A DNA stretch of 64,000 nucleotides from Beroe forskalii (taxonomy: Eukaryota; Ctenophora; Nuda; Beroida; Beroidae), in the NCBI GenBank assembly GCA_011033025.1, contig WFMF01000120.1, positions 124,001-188,000 on the forward strand. Reading direction: 5' to 3'. Of this stretch, positions 1 to 47,513 are shown one piece after another; within the stretch, counting starts at the first letter, position 1; every line of letters starts with the position of its first letter. The translations under genes were made by a program, and so were the position numbers. The notes under the pieces were generated by a model, which made no database searches, had not been told where the DNA came from, and worked only from the letters and a program-made list of their open reading frames with translations.

Positions 1-1
1 G

Positions 2-183
2 TCTTTCAACAGGGAAACGGTCGTGTGCCAAACAACGCCAGTGGAAGTTGATTCTGGTGGCCAACTGGAGGGTCCAGCCTCTGTTACTATCGACCAAGCA
101 GTTTACTCGTTCAAGACCGCCTCCTTCATCTACATCGATATTCCGGATGTAAACAGTGTTAAACCAATCGAATCAATAGTAGA
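2..183 (+). CDS. Plexin-like exon a (window-truncated)
   Basis: Open in the frame starting at base 2 and ending in phase 2 at a GTAAGT donor. It encodes VVCQTTPVEVD and then YSFKTASFIYIDIPDVNSVK, a typical IPT-to-IPT linker. The TTTCAACAG at bases 4-12 could be a true acceptor, which would put the exon start at 13. Confidence 0.6.
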
Positions 184-3100
184 GTAAGTGCAGAGGCGGA
201 CCTACCTACTTTACGGAAGGCGCGAAACTTTTGATCTCTAATGTGGCTAAATTTGAAATTTTATCATCTTTTTTTGTGCGCGGCTTACGCGCGCACGCGC
301 GCGTGGGAATTCCCTTAGTTATTGCCCGGTTAATTGGTTGTCTGCAATTTGGTACACCCAACTTAATTATCGATTTAGTATACACTCCAATTCATGCACA
401 ATCCACGACCTTTATTAGAAATGTGATTCACCTTTCTTACATTGATAAGACTCTGGACTGCTATGTTCCATCAGCCATGATTGAGATGTGACACAATTCA
501 TACAGTGAAATCTTCCCGTAACTTAATCTTTTCTTCAGAGGAGGCATCAACATGACCTTCACCGGTAACAGAGGCTTCACATCAATAACTTCTGCCCAGA
601 TTTACCTAGTAGATACTAGTGATAGGAAGACTAGGCTCTCTGACAACGCACAGGTAGGCCCTGTCGTACTTTGGTTCGCAACATGACCACTAATTTCGTG
701 ATAGTGGTCGTCTCGTCACGATTAGCTAGGGTATTACCCTGTTACTCCGAGAGTTAACTTAAGCTGAAGCTTCCGAATAGCACGTGTCCCTGTGCTGCAC
801 TGTGTACTAATTCGTTATAGTTTATTCGTAAGAGTTTATTATTATACAAGTATTGCAAAACCCATTACAAATCTCATACCTCTGACAACGCACAGTGTTA
901 CCCCGTTACGAATGACATCTTCGTGGTCTGCAACTCCCCCAAACTCTACAGCTCCGTTGACATACCGGACACAGGGAAACTGGCTAACATATTCTGGGTT
1001 CTGGAGAACAGCTACGAAGCGTTGCTATCTGGTTACACGGTCTACGTGTACCCTAACCCTACCATTAACCTGGACAACATGGCGGATCTGAGTGTGGCGG
1101 CAGGGGAGCCCATCTTCATCAGGGTAAGAGAGAGATACACGTGCTGTACACGCAGGGTCGTGTAGTAGTAGGGGTGATTAGTTGATTGCTTTTGTCAGGT
1201 GGTGTGATTTTATACACACACGTGGGGGGTTGGGGGAGTTATTTCATCATGATATTCAGATATTGAAATATAGGTTCAAAGTGTGAAATATATATTTTTT
1301 TGGATATTATAAACGAAATGGAAATGTTTTGCAAACATAGGAGGTGATGAGTGTCGTTCATATGGTCCGGTTATAAAATATCAAATGTTCCGCATGTAAC
1401 TGGACCGTGGTGTATGGCCTATCTAGTTCACAGTCAAATGAAACACATATCATGCACTGGACATCGTATCAGGCATTCACGTTTAGTATATTCTTATGTC
1501 CGTAATACCCAACATGACCTTTAAAGACAAGCTCATCTTTAAATTTAAAGGCGACCTTTAAAAAATTGGGAATTTGAAAATTTGAGGTATTACCCAACAA
1601 ATTTAAGGTCGACTTTAAATTTAAAGTCCGCCAAAATTTTACGTAAAGGTCACCTTTAAATCGACTCTTATTTGGTATTCCCCAACGAAGGTCGTCTTTA
1701 AATGATCAAAAAACCGGTTTAACCGGTTTTATGACCTCTCTTCACCCACACTTCTGAGTTCATGGGAAATTTACTTCCTATGCATGAGTATCAGTTTACG
1801 GAGTATCGGATAGGCGACTGAAATCATGGTGATAAATAATGAAATCATCCAAACTTCAGCTTTGCATGTAGTAAGGGATTGATCCATAACCCCCCGTGAA
1901 CTAAATCCTCCCAAAGATGTTAGAACGGAATTCGGTAGTCCATAGGCCCAAGAACCACCAAAAAAAAGTTGCCCAAGAAAATCCTTGGGGAACCTTGATT
2001 TTTTACCCCTTTTTTACCCACGCATAGGGTAAAACTTTAAGAGGTCATATCTCTGCTTTCTTTTGAGATAGAGAGGTCAACGACCAGTCTAAAATGTGTG
2101 CAATGGTCACATTTGGTGGGGCGGATCAAGGTTTGAAGTCGTTATCTCGAACCGTTTTCGAGATAATCCCCAAAAACCCCTTTTTCACTAAGCACAAAGG
2201 GGTAAAAAAGTGGTACTGCTAAATTTGGCTCTACTGCAGGCAAATTGACCATTTTTGTAATTGTAGAAACGTTTCTGAGTCGCATATAGTCTAAAGTTGC
2301 ACCGAAAAAAGTTGCCCAAGGTATTCCATAAGGAACCCCCATTTTACCCCTTTTTCTTGCGTAACGAAAATTTGAAATTGGGATATCTCCGCTTCCTTTG
2401 AGATAGAGAGGTCAACGACCAGTCTAAAATGAGCGCAATGGTCATATTTAGTGGGGCGGATCAAGGTTTCAAGTCGTTATCTCAAACCGTTTTCGAGATA
2501 ATCCCCAAAAAACCCTTTTTCGCTAAGCGCAAAGGGGTAAAAAAGTGGTACTGCTAAATTTGGCTCTATGCTGCAAGTAAATTGACCATTTTCATGATTG
2601 GAGACACATTTCTGAGTCGTTTACAGTCTAAGGTTGCACCAAGAAAAAGTTGCCCAAGATATTCCATAGGGAAACTCCATTTTAACCCCTTTTTCATACC
2701 CCTCCATGAGCGAAAATTAGAAATGTGGATATCTCGGCTTCCTTTGGCGATACAAAGGTCAGCAATCAATCTAGAATATGTTGAATGAGCATATATTTGG
2801 TGGGGTAGAGCATGGTTTGAGGCCGCTTTTTCCATCGGCTTTGAAGATAATTGATCAAAATTCCATTTTTCGTCACTTCTATGGAGTCAGCTAGATTTTC
2901 CATCATCCCTAATTAGTGCGATTAAAATGGTCTTATCAAGGCTTTTAAATTTAGAAATGGTTTCAATAATGGCATAAACCATCGTGGGTTGTCAATCTAT
3001 GATCAACGTCAAATTATTGGTTAATTATTAATGGTGGCCAATCCTGTACCCAATATCGATTAATCCTCGTTGACTTGCCCCAGTTATTGTTAATTTGGGT

Positions 3101-6100
3101 AATGCAAGACTAGTCACAATTAAATCCATTATTTGTTTGTGAAATACAAGTCAACAAAAAAACCTATATAACTGTCAAATTTTTGCTGCTTTTAGTTATT
3201 GCTGGTTGTTGATTTTTTCCGTCAATAATTTTAGATCTTTGTAATAAAATTGTTGACCTGAAGTGTGGGCAGAAGAAAACCAAAGCCATTCTTCATGAGC
3301 TCAGTGATTCGTAAAAAAGCCTTGACAGTATCTATCTAGATAGCTTTCGCAGTGTAAGTTCAATATCATAGACCTATTTTCTGCCAAATATTCTGTCGAC
3401 TGTCAGTGTCCCTACAATTCGGGACAATCCAGATGAATTGCACTCGTGGTTTAATCCAAAGAATGCGAAAAGTTGGAACTTTTTGTCTCGAGACACGAAG
3501 ACAGCGTTCTTAAAGGAAGTTTTCACTTTTATTTCTTTCTCAGGTTAGTCTTTTTACTTATATGTTAGCCACTGTTCGCCGAAGAAATGCATCTTGCTTG
3601 TCTGTTTATTAGGAATTGTGTAATTATCGTTGTTTAGAAATGAAAACGATCCTGGAACACTCGAAACACACATTGTTCCATTTTTTCGCTTGATCCACAA
3701 CCTTTATAAATAAATAAACACGCACCTATCGGGTTCATTTAAGGATACTTCCCGAGGGATGTATCTGATTTAGGCCCGAGCCCGTGGGGGCGGGGCGAGG
3801 GTCTAAACCAATATGGATCCGATCAGATGTAGACTTCAGAGGGTTCTATGCTCAACTACTACAGAATGGTTAAAATGCATCTTTACAGGGTTTCAGGATC
3901 AAACTGTTTGTGTACAATAGCATTGTCACATTGAAAGCAGCTGTCAAATTTTATAATGGATGATGGCATTTTGCTCACTAGCAATCATCAAGTATTTTCT
4001 GTCAACATAACTTGGCATCGGTGGAAGTTTGCTCACAATGGATCTGTCTTTATAGCCTGGTCTGGTTTGTCTCGAATTGAAGCAGAAGGGCAATCCCCCA
4101 GCTCGTATCATAAGACACTCTACCCACCTTTGAAAAATGTGACCTTTAAAGCAGAGATTTTTCCGAACTCAGACAAGGGGGAAACGAGATATAATTGGTT
4201 GGATATACCATGCTAACCAGTACCACTCACTAGAGAATGACTATATGAGGATGACAGTCAATGAGGCGCAACTGATAAAAAGAAGCAATGCCAATGAAAA
4301 CTCACATCTTTGTTTGGGCTTCGTTGGCAATCTTGATCGTTTTTATTGTGATTCTCTTTGCTGTCTGTATGAGAATTACGTTTAGAAACACTGTGTTTAT
4401 TCAAACATCTACAGTATAAACAGAAGCAACTATCATTACCTTTGCTGATTACAATGTAAATGATAATAATCTATGGCTTTGTTTACGAATCAAGGCTTCA
4501 GTTTTTTTTTAATCTTTTCTACAAATAGTACAACAAAAATATTAAAAATTTGCTGAGATTTCTAATTTTCGCTCATGCAGGGGTATGAAAAAAAGGGTTA
4601 AAACGGAGTTCCTTTATAAAATATCTTGAGCAACTTTTTCTTGGTGCAACTTTTGACTGTAAACGACTCAGAAATGTGTCTCCAATCATGAAAATGGTCA
4701 ATTTACCTGCAGTATAGAGCCAAATTTAGCAGTACCACTTTTTTACTCCTTTGCGATTAGCGAAAAAGGGGTTTTTGGGGATTATCTCGAAAACGGTTTG
4801 AGATAACGACTTGAAACCTTGATCCGCCCCACTTAATGTGACCATTGCGCTCATTTTAGACTGGTCGTTGACCTCTCTATCTCAAAAGGAAGCGGAGATA
4901 TCCCAATTTCAAATTTTCGCTTACGCGGGGGTACGAAAAGAAGAGGGGGAACTGATTGTTAGTTTTGGTGATGTTTTTGGTGTTGTATTATTGTTCATTA
5001 ATCATAGTAATGTTGCTAAATCAGATTTATTGGGAGGGGACATCCTTTCGAAATGGGCTGCAGGTTATTGTATTTATTTCTATGGGTCTAGATGTACAGA
5101 AATTTGTTGTTTGAAAGAAGTGGTGAGGTAATGAGACTTAGCTGGTTTGAAGTACGGAGTACCCAGCAAGTGAGGGTGATGAAAGTGGGAGATATAACGA
5201 AATAAAATGTTGTTTACTTATTGGATATAATATGGGAGAGTTGGACAGGGGGCTAATTTTTATAGCAGTAAGAGGGTTGATAATGCAGGGGTCGCCAATG
5301 CAACTGCTGATTCCAGAATGAAACAAAATTTATTTCATGATGGTGCTGAGGAACCTTGGAGGGATCTGAACTTTAACAAGTTGTATGAGGAGAAAATTTT
5401 TATCAGGGCTTCTTGAGTGGCCTTTGATAGTTTGATGGAGGAAGCCATATTGGTTTTTTGTAGTACAAAGTGGGTTATGACTACAAGGCTGTGCCAATGT
5501 TGTTATTATATAATATGTATGTATGGGTTGATCATTCCCTTTGAGGACAGTCTTCAAGTAGTGTACCTGAATTATAATGAATTAAGTAAAAAGATAGAAG
5601 AATAGTATAGATATAGAAAGAGGGGGCTAGGGCAGTTATAATGTAAAATCAAATGTTAATGTACCGTGAGGGGCTGGATAGTGAAGTTATGATACTTAGC
5701 TGGTGAGTGGTACTAGCGAGTACCCAGCAGGTGGAAGGTGTGGATGATACCAACTGCATGGGGAAGTGCAGTTGGCACACTCGGGAGGGGGAGGTGCGTG
5801 AGGCCCCAACTGGAAAGAACCAGGTCCCTGCCCCCCTGAAAAAGGGGTAAAAATGGGGGTTCCTTTTGGAATATCTTGGGCAACTTTTTTTTCGGTGCAA
5901 CTTTAGACTATATGCGACTCAGAAACGTTTCTACAATTACAAAAAAGGTCAATTTGCCTGCAGTAGAGCCAAATTTAGCAGTACCACTTTTTTACCCCTT
6001 TGCGCTTAGCGAAGAAGGGTTTTTTGGGGATTATCTCGAAAACGGTTCGAGATAACGACTTCAAACCTTGACCCGCCCAACCAAATATGACCATTGCGCA

Positions 6101-8392
6101 CATTTTAGAGTGGTCGTTGACCTCTCTATCTCAAAAGGAAGCAGAGATATGGCCTCTTAAAGTTTTACCCTACGCGTGGGTAAAAAAGGGGTAAAAAATC
6201 AAGGTTCCCAAAGCATTTTCTTGGGCAACTTTTTTTTGGTGGTTCTTGGGCCTATGGACTACCGAATTCCGTTCTAACATCTTTGGGAGGATTTAGTTCA
6301 CGGTGGGTTACAGCCTGGGGCAGATACATCCCTTACTAATGCCACAGTATTGTAAATACGATACGAGGCATCAAACGAATCAAGCTCTCGGCGAAGCTGT
6401 AAAATCTAACTATCGTATTTTAGTTGATATCAGAATTCCGATATACCATTTCATTTGTTGGTGTTACTTATACTAGACATAGTTTATGCCAATATGTCTA
6501 CAGTCAAGCCAAATTACTCGGACTCTCGGAATACTGGAGGTTTTCTTCTGAGGGAAGTCGGCACACCAGCAGCCGCCAATTCTTTAATTATTGTTAACAT
6601 TTAAATTTCATTCGAGAATTCAAAATAATTTCCCCTAATTCATGTGCATTGTTCTTCAATGGGTAAGCACCAGAAACTGCAGGGATCTATCAATATTCAA
6701 TAGGTATTCTGCAAACATAAGGCAAATTACAACGTAAAAGAGGATTTAAAGGTGACCTTTAAATTTAAAGTAGCTCCGAGGTCAGCTTTTTAAATTTTAC
6801 GATTGAAAAGGTGACCTTTACCGAATTTAAAGCTGACCTCGTCTTTAAATTTGTTGGCTAATACCGTTTAAAGGTCACCTTTAAAGGTCACCTTTAAATT
6901 TAAAGGTCACCTTTATGTTGTTGTTGGGGAATACGAACTCGTCTTTAAATTCATTTAAAGCCCACCTCGGCTGTAAATTTTGTTTAAAGAATGTTGGGTA
7001 ATACGGACATTATATTTCTCATGTGCCTCTCACAATCTCAGCTGATATCTATCTTCAGGGCAACTACTTTGACCGGGTTCAGGGGATTGAAGTTATTCTG
7101 AGTTACGAGGACCAGACGGCGTCATGTGCGGAGTTGGAGGTGTTCGGGCAGATTATTACCTGCGTCCTCCCGGACCTACTGGCAACGCCGCCGACTGAAG
7201 ATACGGTACGAGCATTATGTAATCCCTCCTAATTACCATTCAGAGCAACAAATTGCAGTTTCACGTCACCACGAATTTGTCTCAAAATTTATTAGAGATA
7301 TAATGTTTAGATCATACACGTACTTGCATTTAATAAAACATCTACCCCGCAACTTGCTTCTATTTATATAAAATTTGCCGGAATTTTCAAGAGCTGTGCC
7401 ACTTCCATTGAAACACCCGCGCTCAGAAAGAAGCTGGTCGGTGTCAGCAATTCACCATTGTGAGCCATGATAATGAAGTCCCTCACATCTGTCTGTTATG
7501 CGCGCTTGTCGTGTACAGCTCCATAAAATACCTAGAAACCATTTAACGAGTGACGCGGCGTGTGTGGTTGCTCTCATATTATGTAGGGGGGGGGGCAGTA
7601 AAATTTCCCGCAATCATGTCCAGATTAACCTCTTTTTCGGGATTTGGACAAAATTAGACTAAAATGACTAAATGGACATGTTCGTCAAAACTATGCAGCT
7701 TCCACGTATTTAAGTGTTTTAAACCCGTGTGCCTAATTTGGACAAGAAAATGTCTAATTTTTTCCAATCATGTTGTTGTCCAAAATAAGACTTGCCCCCC
7801 TATGTACAACATTACCCAAATCATGACAGTTCATTAAGAGCTGCGTCACGTAAATTGCTGACATGTCATTCAATATATTGTACGTTGTTTAATATTCAGC
7901 AGTTACACAACAATAGATGATGGGGTTCTCACTTTTAGGTGGCATTTCAAACAGCACTCTTCTTGCCTAAGATCGCTGAACAAAGAAATCCAATTTATAC
8001 AATTATAACTCAACGTAAGACAAAAGCAAACAAAAGAAATAAACTTCATTCCTCCATCAGGTCTCCAGGAGACGCGAGCCTCGATTCTGACTCTGACTCT
8101 AAATCAACTATCAAGAAGGATTTCGAAATAACGGTCAGAATTAAATTTAACAACTTACTTTATCGGGAAGAATCGACCTCCTGAGACTTCCAGTGTATTA
8201 TTTCAATAAAAACCATTGACTGCTATTGACGATTGATCCATTCATACTTTTGTACAAAGTTTCTAAGGTTTATATCATTTATAAAAAGTTTAGGAACTGA
8301 TGGTTTTGATCAGGTGAAGCTCGGTAACTACAAGTCGGACCCGATTAAAGCAGAGTTTATACAGGAAGTTCCTGTTGAGGCTAACATAATCG
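2..8392 (+). CDS. Plexin-like receptor, extracellular IPT/TIG region (partial, 6 exons)
   Basis: Spliced plus-strand gene fragment with exons at 2-183, 539-653, 896-1123, 7059-7205, 7939-8133 and 8314-8392. Every junction is GT-AG and the phases agree (2, 0, 0, 0, 0, then 1). The joined protein of about 315 residues has the pattern of plexin/MET ectodomains: VVCQTTP closing one IPT domain, IDIPDVNSVKPIES then GGINMTFTGNRGF opening the next, then VYVYPNP and GEPIFIRGNYFDR, which resembles the YYPNP...GxxIxIxGxN signature before the last IPT domain. It ends in VKLGNYKSDPI, just where plexins approach the membrane. Plexins are semaphorin receptors with a cytoplasmic GAP domain. Sema/PSI domains would lie before the window; the membrane and GAP exons were not found after 8392, so they lie in a long intron or elsewhere. 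Another IPT receptor remains possible. Confidence 0.6.
539..653 (+). CDS. Plexin-like exon b
   Basis: Acceptor TTCTTCAG, donor CAG/GTAGGC. It encodes GGINMTFTGNRGFTSITSAQ, the opening strands of an IPT/TIG fold. Its last 16 bases are repeated exactly at the end of the following intron (880-895). Confidence 0.65.
654..895 (+). other. 242 bp intron flanked by a 16 bp direct repeat
   Basis: The exon end CTCTGACAACGCACAG (638-653) recurs at 880-895 immediately before the next exon. Splicing removes one repeat copy together with the intervening DNA and rebuilds a continuous reading frame. This looks like an intron created by insertion with target-site duplication, or by a local duplication. Confidence 0.75.
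896..1123 (+). CDS. Plexin-like exon c
   Basis: Exactly 76 codons, phase 0 at both ends, donor AGG/GTAAGA. It encodes CYPVTNDIFVVCNSPKLYSS and later YTVYVYPNP and AAGEPIFIR. The VVCNSP strand and YPNP step are characteristic of plexin IPT domains. Confidence 0.65.
3708..3832. repeat. Interspersed repeat shared with 39222-39490
   Basis: The words CACGCACCTATCGGGT, GATACTTCC, GAGGGATGTATC, CGAGGGTCTAAACCAATATG and CGATCAG occur in the same order here and at 39240-39355, so both are copies of one family. This copy lies in the central part of the large inverted-repeat element. Confidence 0.7.
3890..4420 (+). other. Open frames of unknown origin in the centre of the large element
   Basis: Between the inverted arms there are overlapping plus-strand open stretches in three frames. 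One (3956-4216, 86 codons) contains the possible N-glycosylation sequons NITW and NVTF. A second frame is open from about 4191 into 4380. A third starts with ATG at 4288 and encodes about 43 residues with a hydrophobic, membrane-like core (FVWASLAILIVFIVILFAVC) followed by basic residues. Stepping from frame to frame could mean a frameshifted remnant of a captured surface-protein gene. No family was recognised, and chance open frames are a real alternative. Confidence 0.25.
7059..7205 (+). CDS. Plexin-like exon d
   Basis: 49 codons, acceptor ATCTTCAG, donor ACG/GTACGA. It encodes GNYFDRVQGIEVILSYEDQ and then C...QIITCVLPDLL, an IPT domain with its cysteine pair. Its upstream intron contains the 5.5 kb element. 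Confidence 0.65.
7579..7806. mobile_element. Short MITE-like element with G/C-run termini
   Basis: Starts TATGTAGGGGGGGGG and ends CCCCCCTATGTA, a near inverted repeat around about 200 bp of AT-rich sequence with no coding potential. It lies in a plexin intron. Confidence 0.45.
7939..8133 (+). CDS. Plexin-like exon e (boundaries less sure)
   Basis: 65 codons in phase 0, acceptor CTTTTAG, donor ACG/GTCAGA, which is a weak site. It ends in KKDFEIT, which joins naturally to VKLGNY of the next exon as a beta strand. The middle (KTKANKRNK) looks unlike an IPT domain, so an internal GTAAGA near 8013 and a CATCAG near 8060 may split it; that split breaks phase and is less likely. Confidence 0.45.
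8314..8392 (+). CDS. Plexin-like exon f (last one found)
   Basis: Acceptor GATCAG, donor G/GTAATT. It encodes VKLGNYKSDPIKAEFIQEVP, the strand that precedes the membrane segment in plexins. It leaves in phase 1 with no continuation recognised downstream. Confidence 0.55.
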
Positions 8393-46692: not shown

Positions 46693-47413
46693 TTATCGTT
46701 TGATAACGATTTTGTAAATACCATGAATCATCATTGAAATGTTTGCAATAATCATAATGGAAATGGAATTTAAAACTTTTTACTCAGTTATAATCAAGCT
46801 AATTTTTTTAATTTATTATCATTGGCAATAACTTAAAGCGAGAATATAGCGATATCGAATAACTGTATCATATAGTAGAAATTAATGTAAAAATGAAAAC
46901 TTGTTTAGAAACGAAAGTTGGACTGAAATTTTAATTTAAATAGGACAGCATTTGTCATGGCAATGTTGTTGTAAATGTACTTGTAAGATTTACATCTTAG
47001 GGTTAGATTTCAAATAATGATGTATCAGTTTATTTATTTTTGACGATTGATATCATTTAATCAATATTCAATGAAAATGAATATTCATTGTATTTAATTG
47101 GACGATTTTGGTATTTTGATTTTGGTATTTGAATTTAAGAACCGTGTTAACTACAAGATTGAATTTATTGACCATTTAATTTTAATAACATTATCGGTAA
47201 ACCGGCTCTTTTACTTTCTTAATCAATAATATTCCGAGGGACAATGTAGACCATATATTATTAAAATTTTGGTTGTCGAGCTTCGAGTTCGAATCTTTAT
47301 CTTATCTCATTCAGAAGCTGAATGACATATCATATTTTAAACATACAGCTACATGCCCATTCGCCTGTATGGTGTCCGAGAGTGGACACAAAAAAAATCT
47401 GCACCTCGAAAAA
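46693..47413. other. AT-rich intergenic sequence up to the gap
   Basis: No gene or repeat was recognised. Confidence 0.4.
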
Positions 47414-47513
47414 NNNNNNNNNNNNNNNNNNNNNNNNNNNNNNNNNNNNNNNNNNNNNNNNNNNNNNNNNNNNNNNNNNNNNNNNNNNNNNNNNNNNNNN
47501 NNNNNNNNNNNNN
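47414..47513. other. Assembly gap (100 N)
   Basis: Exactly 100 unknown bases, a conventional placeholder; the true distance is unknown. Open frames that run across it are meaningless. Confidence 1.

Follow-up and report, generated by a model that had tools for sequence, protein, structure and literature searches.

Does an exact repeat, standing at the end of an exon and again at the end of the intron that follows it, record how that intron came into being? Most introns are too old to reveal their origin. The question is raised by an intron of 242 nt in a plexin segment within the window, by which we mean the whole 64 000-nucleotide stretch of DNA analysed here (C160:124001-188000 in a 216-Mb assembly of 1134 contigs). 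Positions given without a contig name are those of the window.

The window segment is a plexin IPT exon pair. It is preceded by the end of another plexin exon of the IPT region (exon 1, 1..183; recognised by its frame, a splice signal and a Plexin-A2 match) and by intron 1 (184..538), whose donor GTAAGTG can be read from the sequence at 184-190. The pair consists of exon 2 (539..653; GGINMTFTG...LSDNAQ) and exon 3 (896..1123; CYPVTNDIFVVC...EPIFIR), both in open frame, with intron 2 (654..895; GT-AG, phase 0, donor CAG|GTAGGC) between them. The next plexin exon region (IYLQGNYFDRVQGIEVILSYEDQTASC...; 7012..7232, with approximate exon edges) was placed by its frame and by comparison with a second copy of the segment, and all these features are on the forward strand. 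The best solved relative for the plexin ectodomain match is Plexin-A2 (E=4e-6, best stretch 7-174 of the query). The match to the Pfam IPT/TIG family is weak and under the cut-off (E 0.11; 12.9 versus 20.9 bits), and a mouse plexin fragment found a single match in the genome (E 1.7). A fifth protein match, on contig C736 (weak, E 1.2), was rejected as a plexin exon on inspection.

When 540-653 is joined to 896-1122, a single open frame results, in phase 0 (GGINMTF...LSDNAQ|CYPVTND...EPIFI), and there are stops in the frame of exon 2 within 654-895. Upstream of exon 3 its frame stays open through the second repeat copy and back to 821, so the acceptor is not fixed by the frame alone. From the AG that ends the repeat, together with the frame, we infer that this AG is the acceptor, which keeps the coding sequence in step, and that intron 2 is spliced.

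The 16-mer CTCTGACAACGCACAG is found at 638-653, where it ends exon 2, and in identical form at 880-895, where it ends intron 2 (both on the forward strand; start-to-start spacing 242). The first copy is followed by GT (its 3′ flank is GTAGG), and the second ends in AG (its 3′ flank is TGTTACC). The earlier note had described this exact 16 bp repeat, with GT after the first copy and the AG taken from the second, and we could confirm both coordinates, the identity and the two dinucleotides; removal of 654-895, as by the presumed splicing, restores the frame. A direct repeat that flanks an insert in splice register is the layout expected of insertion with target duplication. With up to three mismatches allowed, the 16-mer has exactly two matches in the window, the two copies themselves. 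Genome-wide, with up to one mismatch, there are three exact matches (the two copies and one more exon end, in the second copy of the segment) and three with one mismatch. As the reversed-pattern control gave two matches in the same search, against those three, we rejected the idea that the 16-mer is a dispersed repeat element.

How unusual is such a match? We compared exon ends with intron ends in 59 introns of plexin and myosin genes: 57 with junctions chosen by a script, intron 2 and an intron-like stretch on contig C159, described below, with a donor chosen by hand. Each gene in this set was modelled in part, and some modelled introns score poorly and may be wrong; junctions that lacked a usable combination were left out (P691, 1 and 10; P159, 7; B, 3; C225a, 5; C225b, 3). 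In 57 out of the 59 introns the two ends match exactly over 0-5 nt; the figure is 10 nt in the C159 stretch and 16 nt in intron 2. Among 3414 cross-paired exon and intron ends (pairs between the two copies of the segment excluded), one pair reaches 13 nt and the rest have at most 9. Matches of at least 4 nt make up 8.5% of the own pairs (both cases included) versus 6.2% of the cross pairs; once the two cases are set aside, the ordinary introns among the 59 are not clearly richer in short exon-end matches. The ordinary introns of this sample have no visible scars; intron 2 and the C159 stretch stand out. Four more myosin stretches, outside the 59, were scanned for exact repeats of at least 8 nt: six matches were found in C29, all in a tandem array, two in C847 (9 and 8 nt) and one in C580 (8 nt). 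One of the C847 matches begins at an exon end, but its second copy apparently does not coincide with the next exon's acceptor.

The second copy of the plexin segment (copy B; the copy in the window is copy A) is on the same contig and is inverted relative to copy A: 118027-132416 of C160 matches 245827-241728, in three main blocks of 92-96% identity and a 43-bp block. The two share about 4.1 kb within the stretches compared, and three segments of copy A, of ∼1.0, 3.7 and 5.5 kb, have no counterpart in copy B. The largest is in intron 3 (1498..7011) and has short terminal inverted repeats with a longer inverted pair inside; the 3.7-kb segment (C160:120146-123830) has inverted repeats of ∼570 bp at its ends; the smallest is at C160:119060-120102. 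The two larger ones are probably transposons. All matches to the plexin cytoplasmic part on C160 (E<=0.01) are beside copy B (228129-239888) and none beside copy A; an upstream IPT match (246594-246746) is likewise beside copy B. Copy B therefore sits in a gene with cytoplasmic exons, and copy A is a partial copy; no cytoplasmic domain was found in the same gene as copy A among the C160 matches at E<=0.01. A single 100-N scaffold gap (window about 47411-47510) lies between the copies, so that their distance and orientation rest on scaffolding.

Copies A and B differ at three out of 527 aligned exon sites: exon 2 has two substitutions in 116 aligned sites (segment 538-653) and exon 3 has none in 227 (896-1122). 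The introns differ at 15 out of 339 sites (intron 1), 30 out of 216 (intron 2) and 13 out of 364 (intron 3). We also observed that the divergence of intron 2 is about three times that of the other two introns and is not confined to the repeat: without the repeat it is still more diverged than its neighbours (25/200, as entered, versus 28/703; Fisher p about 5e-5). Since the exons differ so little, most of the divergence may have arisen with both versions under constraint, e.g. as alleles. The donor of intron 1 is kept in copy A and lost in copy B, near C160 244421, through a 3-bp deletion and a substitution.

Copy B has intron 2 along its whole length at the same place, and its exon ends with the same 16-mer, CTCTGACAACGCACAG; the intron therefore predates the split of the two copies. 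The intron end, however, reads CCCTAAACCCCTCAG in copy B versus CTCTGACAACGCACAG in copy A, so the repeat belongs to copy A only. The earlier note had called this a recent intron gain. A gain confined to this paralogue is the most economical account, as discussed below, but a strictly recent gain does not agree with the presence in copy B of the same intron, at that divergence and free of the repeat. An intron-less counterpart of the site was not found: copy B is filled, and the paralogues are too diverged at the DNA level to act as such a counterpart.

Within the 16 columns of the repeat region there are six difference events between the copies, the densest cluster in the three aligned introns (elsewhere at most five per 16). 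The exon end offers a nearby template for the intron end of copy A, not for that of copy B, and the 16-nt match spans all six differences; direction of change aside, this is the pattern of clustered differences with a nearby template by which template switches are recognised. We scanned all clusters of at least two differences between the copies for templates, direct or inverted, up to 500 bp away, and the 16-bp match was the only one longer than 9 nt. Inverted-repeat template switches that had been picked out by eye in copy A (GACCACTA..TAGTGGTC) were dropped, as the scan gave nothing else above 9 nt. If copy B decayed from the scar, the probability of at least six events in 16 sites is 2e-4, 0.012 or 0.08 at per-site rates of 0.06, 0.13 or 0.20, respectively. 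The intron end of copy B is identical to the exon end at nine out of 16 positions, a level equalled by three out of 57 other modelled intron ends. Neither this identity nor the decay probability separates a scar lost in copy B from a tract copied into copy A. The donor scores 7.1 in copy B (GTAAG) versus 4.5 in copy A (GTAGG), with 55 and 40 out of 58 modelled donors lower; the acceptors score 0.7 and −0.7, both low, with only eight and five out of 58 lower. These scores fit improvement in copy B as well as decay in copy A.

Plexin cytoplasmic matches mark three further loci, on C691, C159 and C561. Two of these, C691 and C561, have the homologous domain in one open exon, with no intron there (an acidic insertion shifts the C561 row out of place in our paralogue alignment, but that exon has an open frame throughout). 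The C159 domain is interrupted by an intron-like stretch of 189 nt (C159:300635-300447, reverse strand), which lies 21 nt (seven codons) further 3′ than the C160 intron position. Within this genome, then, the intron position is absent from two out of three other plexin loci and shifted in the third. The C159 exon ends in AGGAGCTAAG|GTCTAC and the stretch in TTTAGGAGCTAAG|AGGTAC, an exact 10-bp repeat of the exon end, again in register. The predicted splice product (EECYRSGAK|RYTCRTPS) keeps the cysteine spacing of the domain, and in a DNA search of the genome the stretch was unique. Its splice sites are poor: three out of 58 modelled donors and one out of 58 acceptors score lower. The scoring matrix favours another donor (−5.9 versus −8.9) that would delete the first cysteine; the match and array counts instead rest on the donor at the 10-bp repeat, which we selected manually since it keeps this conserved cysteine. 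Perhaps the stretch became an intron very recently, or it is an insertion with poor splicing or none.

The explanation that we prefer, tentatively and at a little short of an even chance, is that intron 2 was gained in this paralogue by an insertion that duplicated its target, and that the scar was kept in copy A and rewritten in copy B. After the plexin paralogues of this animal had separated, about 226 bp of DNA would have been inserted into an uninterrupted exon at ...CTCTGACAACGCACAG^TGTTACC..., the exon before the insertion having read ...CTCTGACAACGCACAGTGTTACC..., with no intron. Sixteen base pairs of the target would have been duplicated, either as a staggered break was filled in or as a target-site duplication. 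The insert would have begun with GT, and the second target copy would have supplied the AG, so that removal restored the original coding sequence. Copy A would retain both target copies; in copy B the 3′ end would later have been rewritten to a C-rich sequence, and the donor would read GTAAG instead of GTAGG. Both the role of the insertion as maker of the repeat and the direction of change between the copies are what we infer from these comparisons.

Several observations argue for such an insertion. The in-register repeat of 16 bp exceeds the distributions of both the 59 introns and the cross pairs, and an insertion scar accounts for the exact register at both ends with no further assumption. 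It also explains why the intron is restricted to one paralogue and why C159 shows a second case. With the domain uninterrupted in C691 and C561 and the C159 stretch shifted by 21 nt, the simplest history is a gain confined to this paralogue. The better donor and slightly better acceptor of copy B are expected if copy A is nearer to the initial state. Against the insertion, the cluster of six events in copy B is unlikely as decay at the local rate, and selection for a better acceptor would be needed, yet the acceptor of copy B itself scores low (eight out of 58 lower). No source of the inserted DNA was found in a genome search with intron 2.

The main rival, which we regard as possible though somewhat unlikely, is secondary templated copying: an older intron would have had an acceptor like that of copy B, and a short piece of the exon end, with a changed core of 12 nt, would have been copied over the acceptor of copy A, by template switching or by break repair primed at the shared CAG. 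The repeat would then be secondary and silent on the origin of the intron. Such copying explains the six clustered differences at one stroke, at the sole scanned cluster with a template match longer than 9 nt, and it agrees with the more canonical donor of copy B and with a partial gene copy that may be free to decay. It requires, however, that the copied tract fell into register with both splice junctions by coincidence, and it leaves the in-register case in C159 unexplained. In addition, the intron end of copy B is already somewhat like the exon end (at the nine out of 16 positions mentioned above, as in three out of 57 other ends), and the exons of copy A are nearly unchanged (3/527), unlike the outcome of long decay.

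We consider it improbable that plexins had this intron ancestrally, that C691 and C561 lost it and that it was displaced in C159, with the repeat an unrelated local event or an assembly error. Our comparison is confined to the plexins of one genome, and copies A and B flank the 100-N gap in the scaffold, which leaves room for this reading; it needs at least two losses and a shift. A mobile intron family, i.e. an introner with a target-site duplication, is very unlikely: the layout, with the 5′ splice site from the insert and the 3′ one from the target, is among those described for introners in PMC9860276, but the genome has just two matches for intron 2 (the intron itself and its counterpart in copy B), so that the family of similar introns that the earlier note had named as support did not turn up, and the C159 stretch is unique. 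(Our DNA search scores the best candidates only and skips very common words, and could in principle miss a highly repeated family.) Least credible of all is a tandem duplication of an AGGT-bearing segment, the local segmental duplication also proposed earlier: some tandem arrays here do span splice junctions (copy B and a myosin gene have examples), but the whole intron should then resemble its flank, whereas the match ends at 16 bp on both sides and the second copy is followed by TGTTACC, not by GTAGG as the first is.

If the insertion is taken together with the C159 case, two paralogues would each have acquired an intron in the same plexin domain, in independent events and at sites 21 nt apart, through the insertion of unique DNA with an exact in-register target duplication (16 and 10 bp, respectively), and the two copies of the first intron would show its ends before and after remodelling. 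We offer this double gain as a speculation that is more doubtful than not. The parallel C159 case is the most interesting part of the finding, though its splice sites score poorly; if the double gain is true, the exon would be a hot spot at which an animal gained introns in parallel, with scars still visible.

The kind of event is already known; our finding adds a candidate, in which the scar has been lost from a sister copy or was never present there. In PMC4202315, new introns of Daphnia pulex are attributed to staggered double-strand breaks, and they resemble our case in their direct-repeat footprints and in parallel gains at the same or neighbouring sites. There, however, gain was shown by outgroups and by many clones with the uninterrupted exon, whereas we have one assembly and no intron-less allele; the Daphnia introns are short (apparently about 78 bp on average, versus 242 nt here), and that paper's abstract stresses repeats inside the new intron, whereas ours are exactly at the two splice junctions. 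Introners likewise take a splice site from the target duplication, but PMC9860276 names duplications of 3-9 bp, in contrast to 16 bp and no family found in the genome here. Short-range template-switch mutations (PMC7954356) also explain a local cluster of changes by a nearby template; here the copied sequence is in direct orientation, at a distance of 242 bp and in splice register. In PMC11782384, direct repeats are reported near the borders of all 213 introns surveyed and, as here, repeats at or near both borders are read as the trace of an insertion. That survey allows mismatches and some distance from the border, whereas with our exact in-register matching 57 out of 59 introns are at about the level of the cross pairs. 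An intact in-register scar, a scarless sister copy and a scarred stretch in a paralogue would together make a testable case of how an insertion becomes a spliced intron, and of the pace at which its ends are remodelled.

We also observed minisatellites that contain exon ends or starts together with splice sites, with units of 29 bp (18 copies), 60 bp (nine copies), 69 bp (32 copies) and 43 bp (eight copies). They are found in copy B (C160 about 239437-238900 and 234204-233660), in the C29 myosin gene (L065, reverse strand 2846-4992) and in the C561 plexin gene (the array of about 43 bp with eight copies). Minisatellites are not enriched at splice junctions in our count, to which the C29 gene does not belong: six out of 16 arrays straddle a modelled junction, against a null mean of 5.2 under uniform placement (P 0.41). 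In another example of local duplication, the C225 myosin gene (L063, reverse strand about 939-1480) carries a motor exon twice, as consecutive tandem copies that are candidate mutually exclusive exons.
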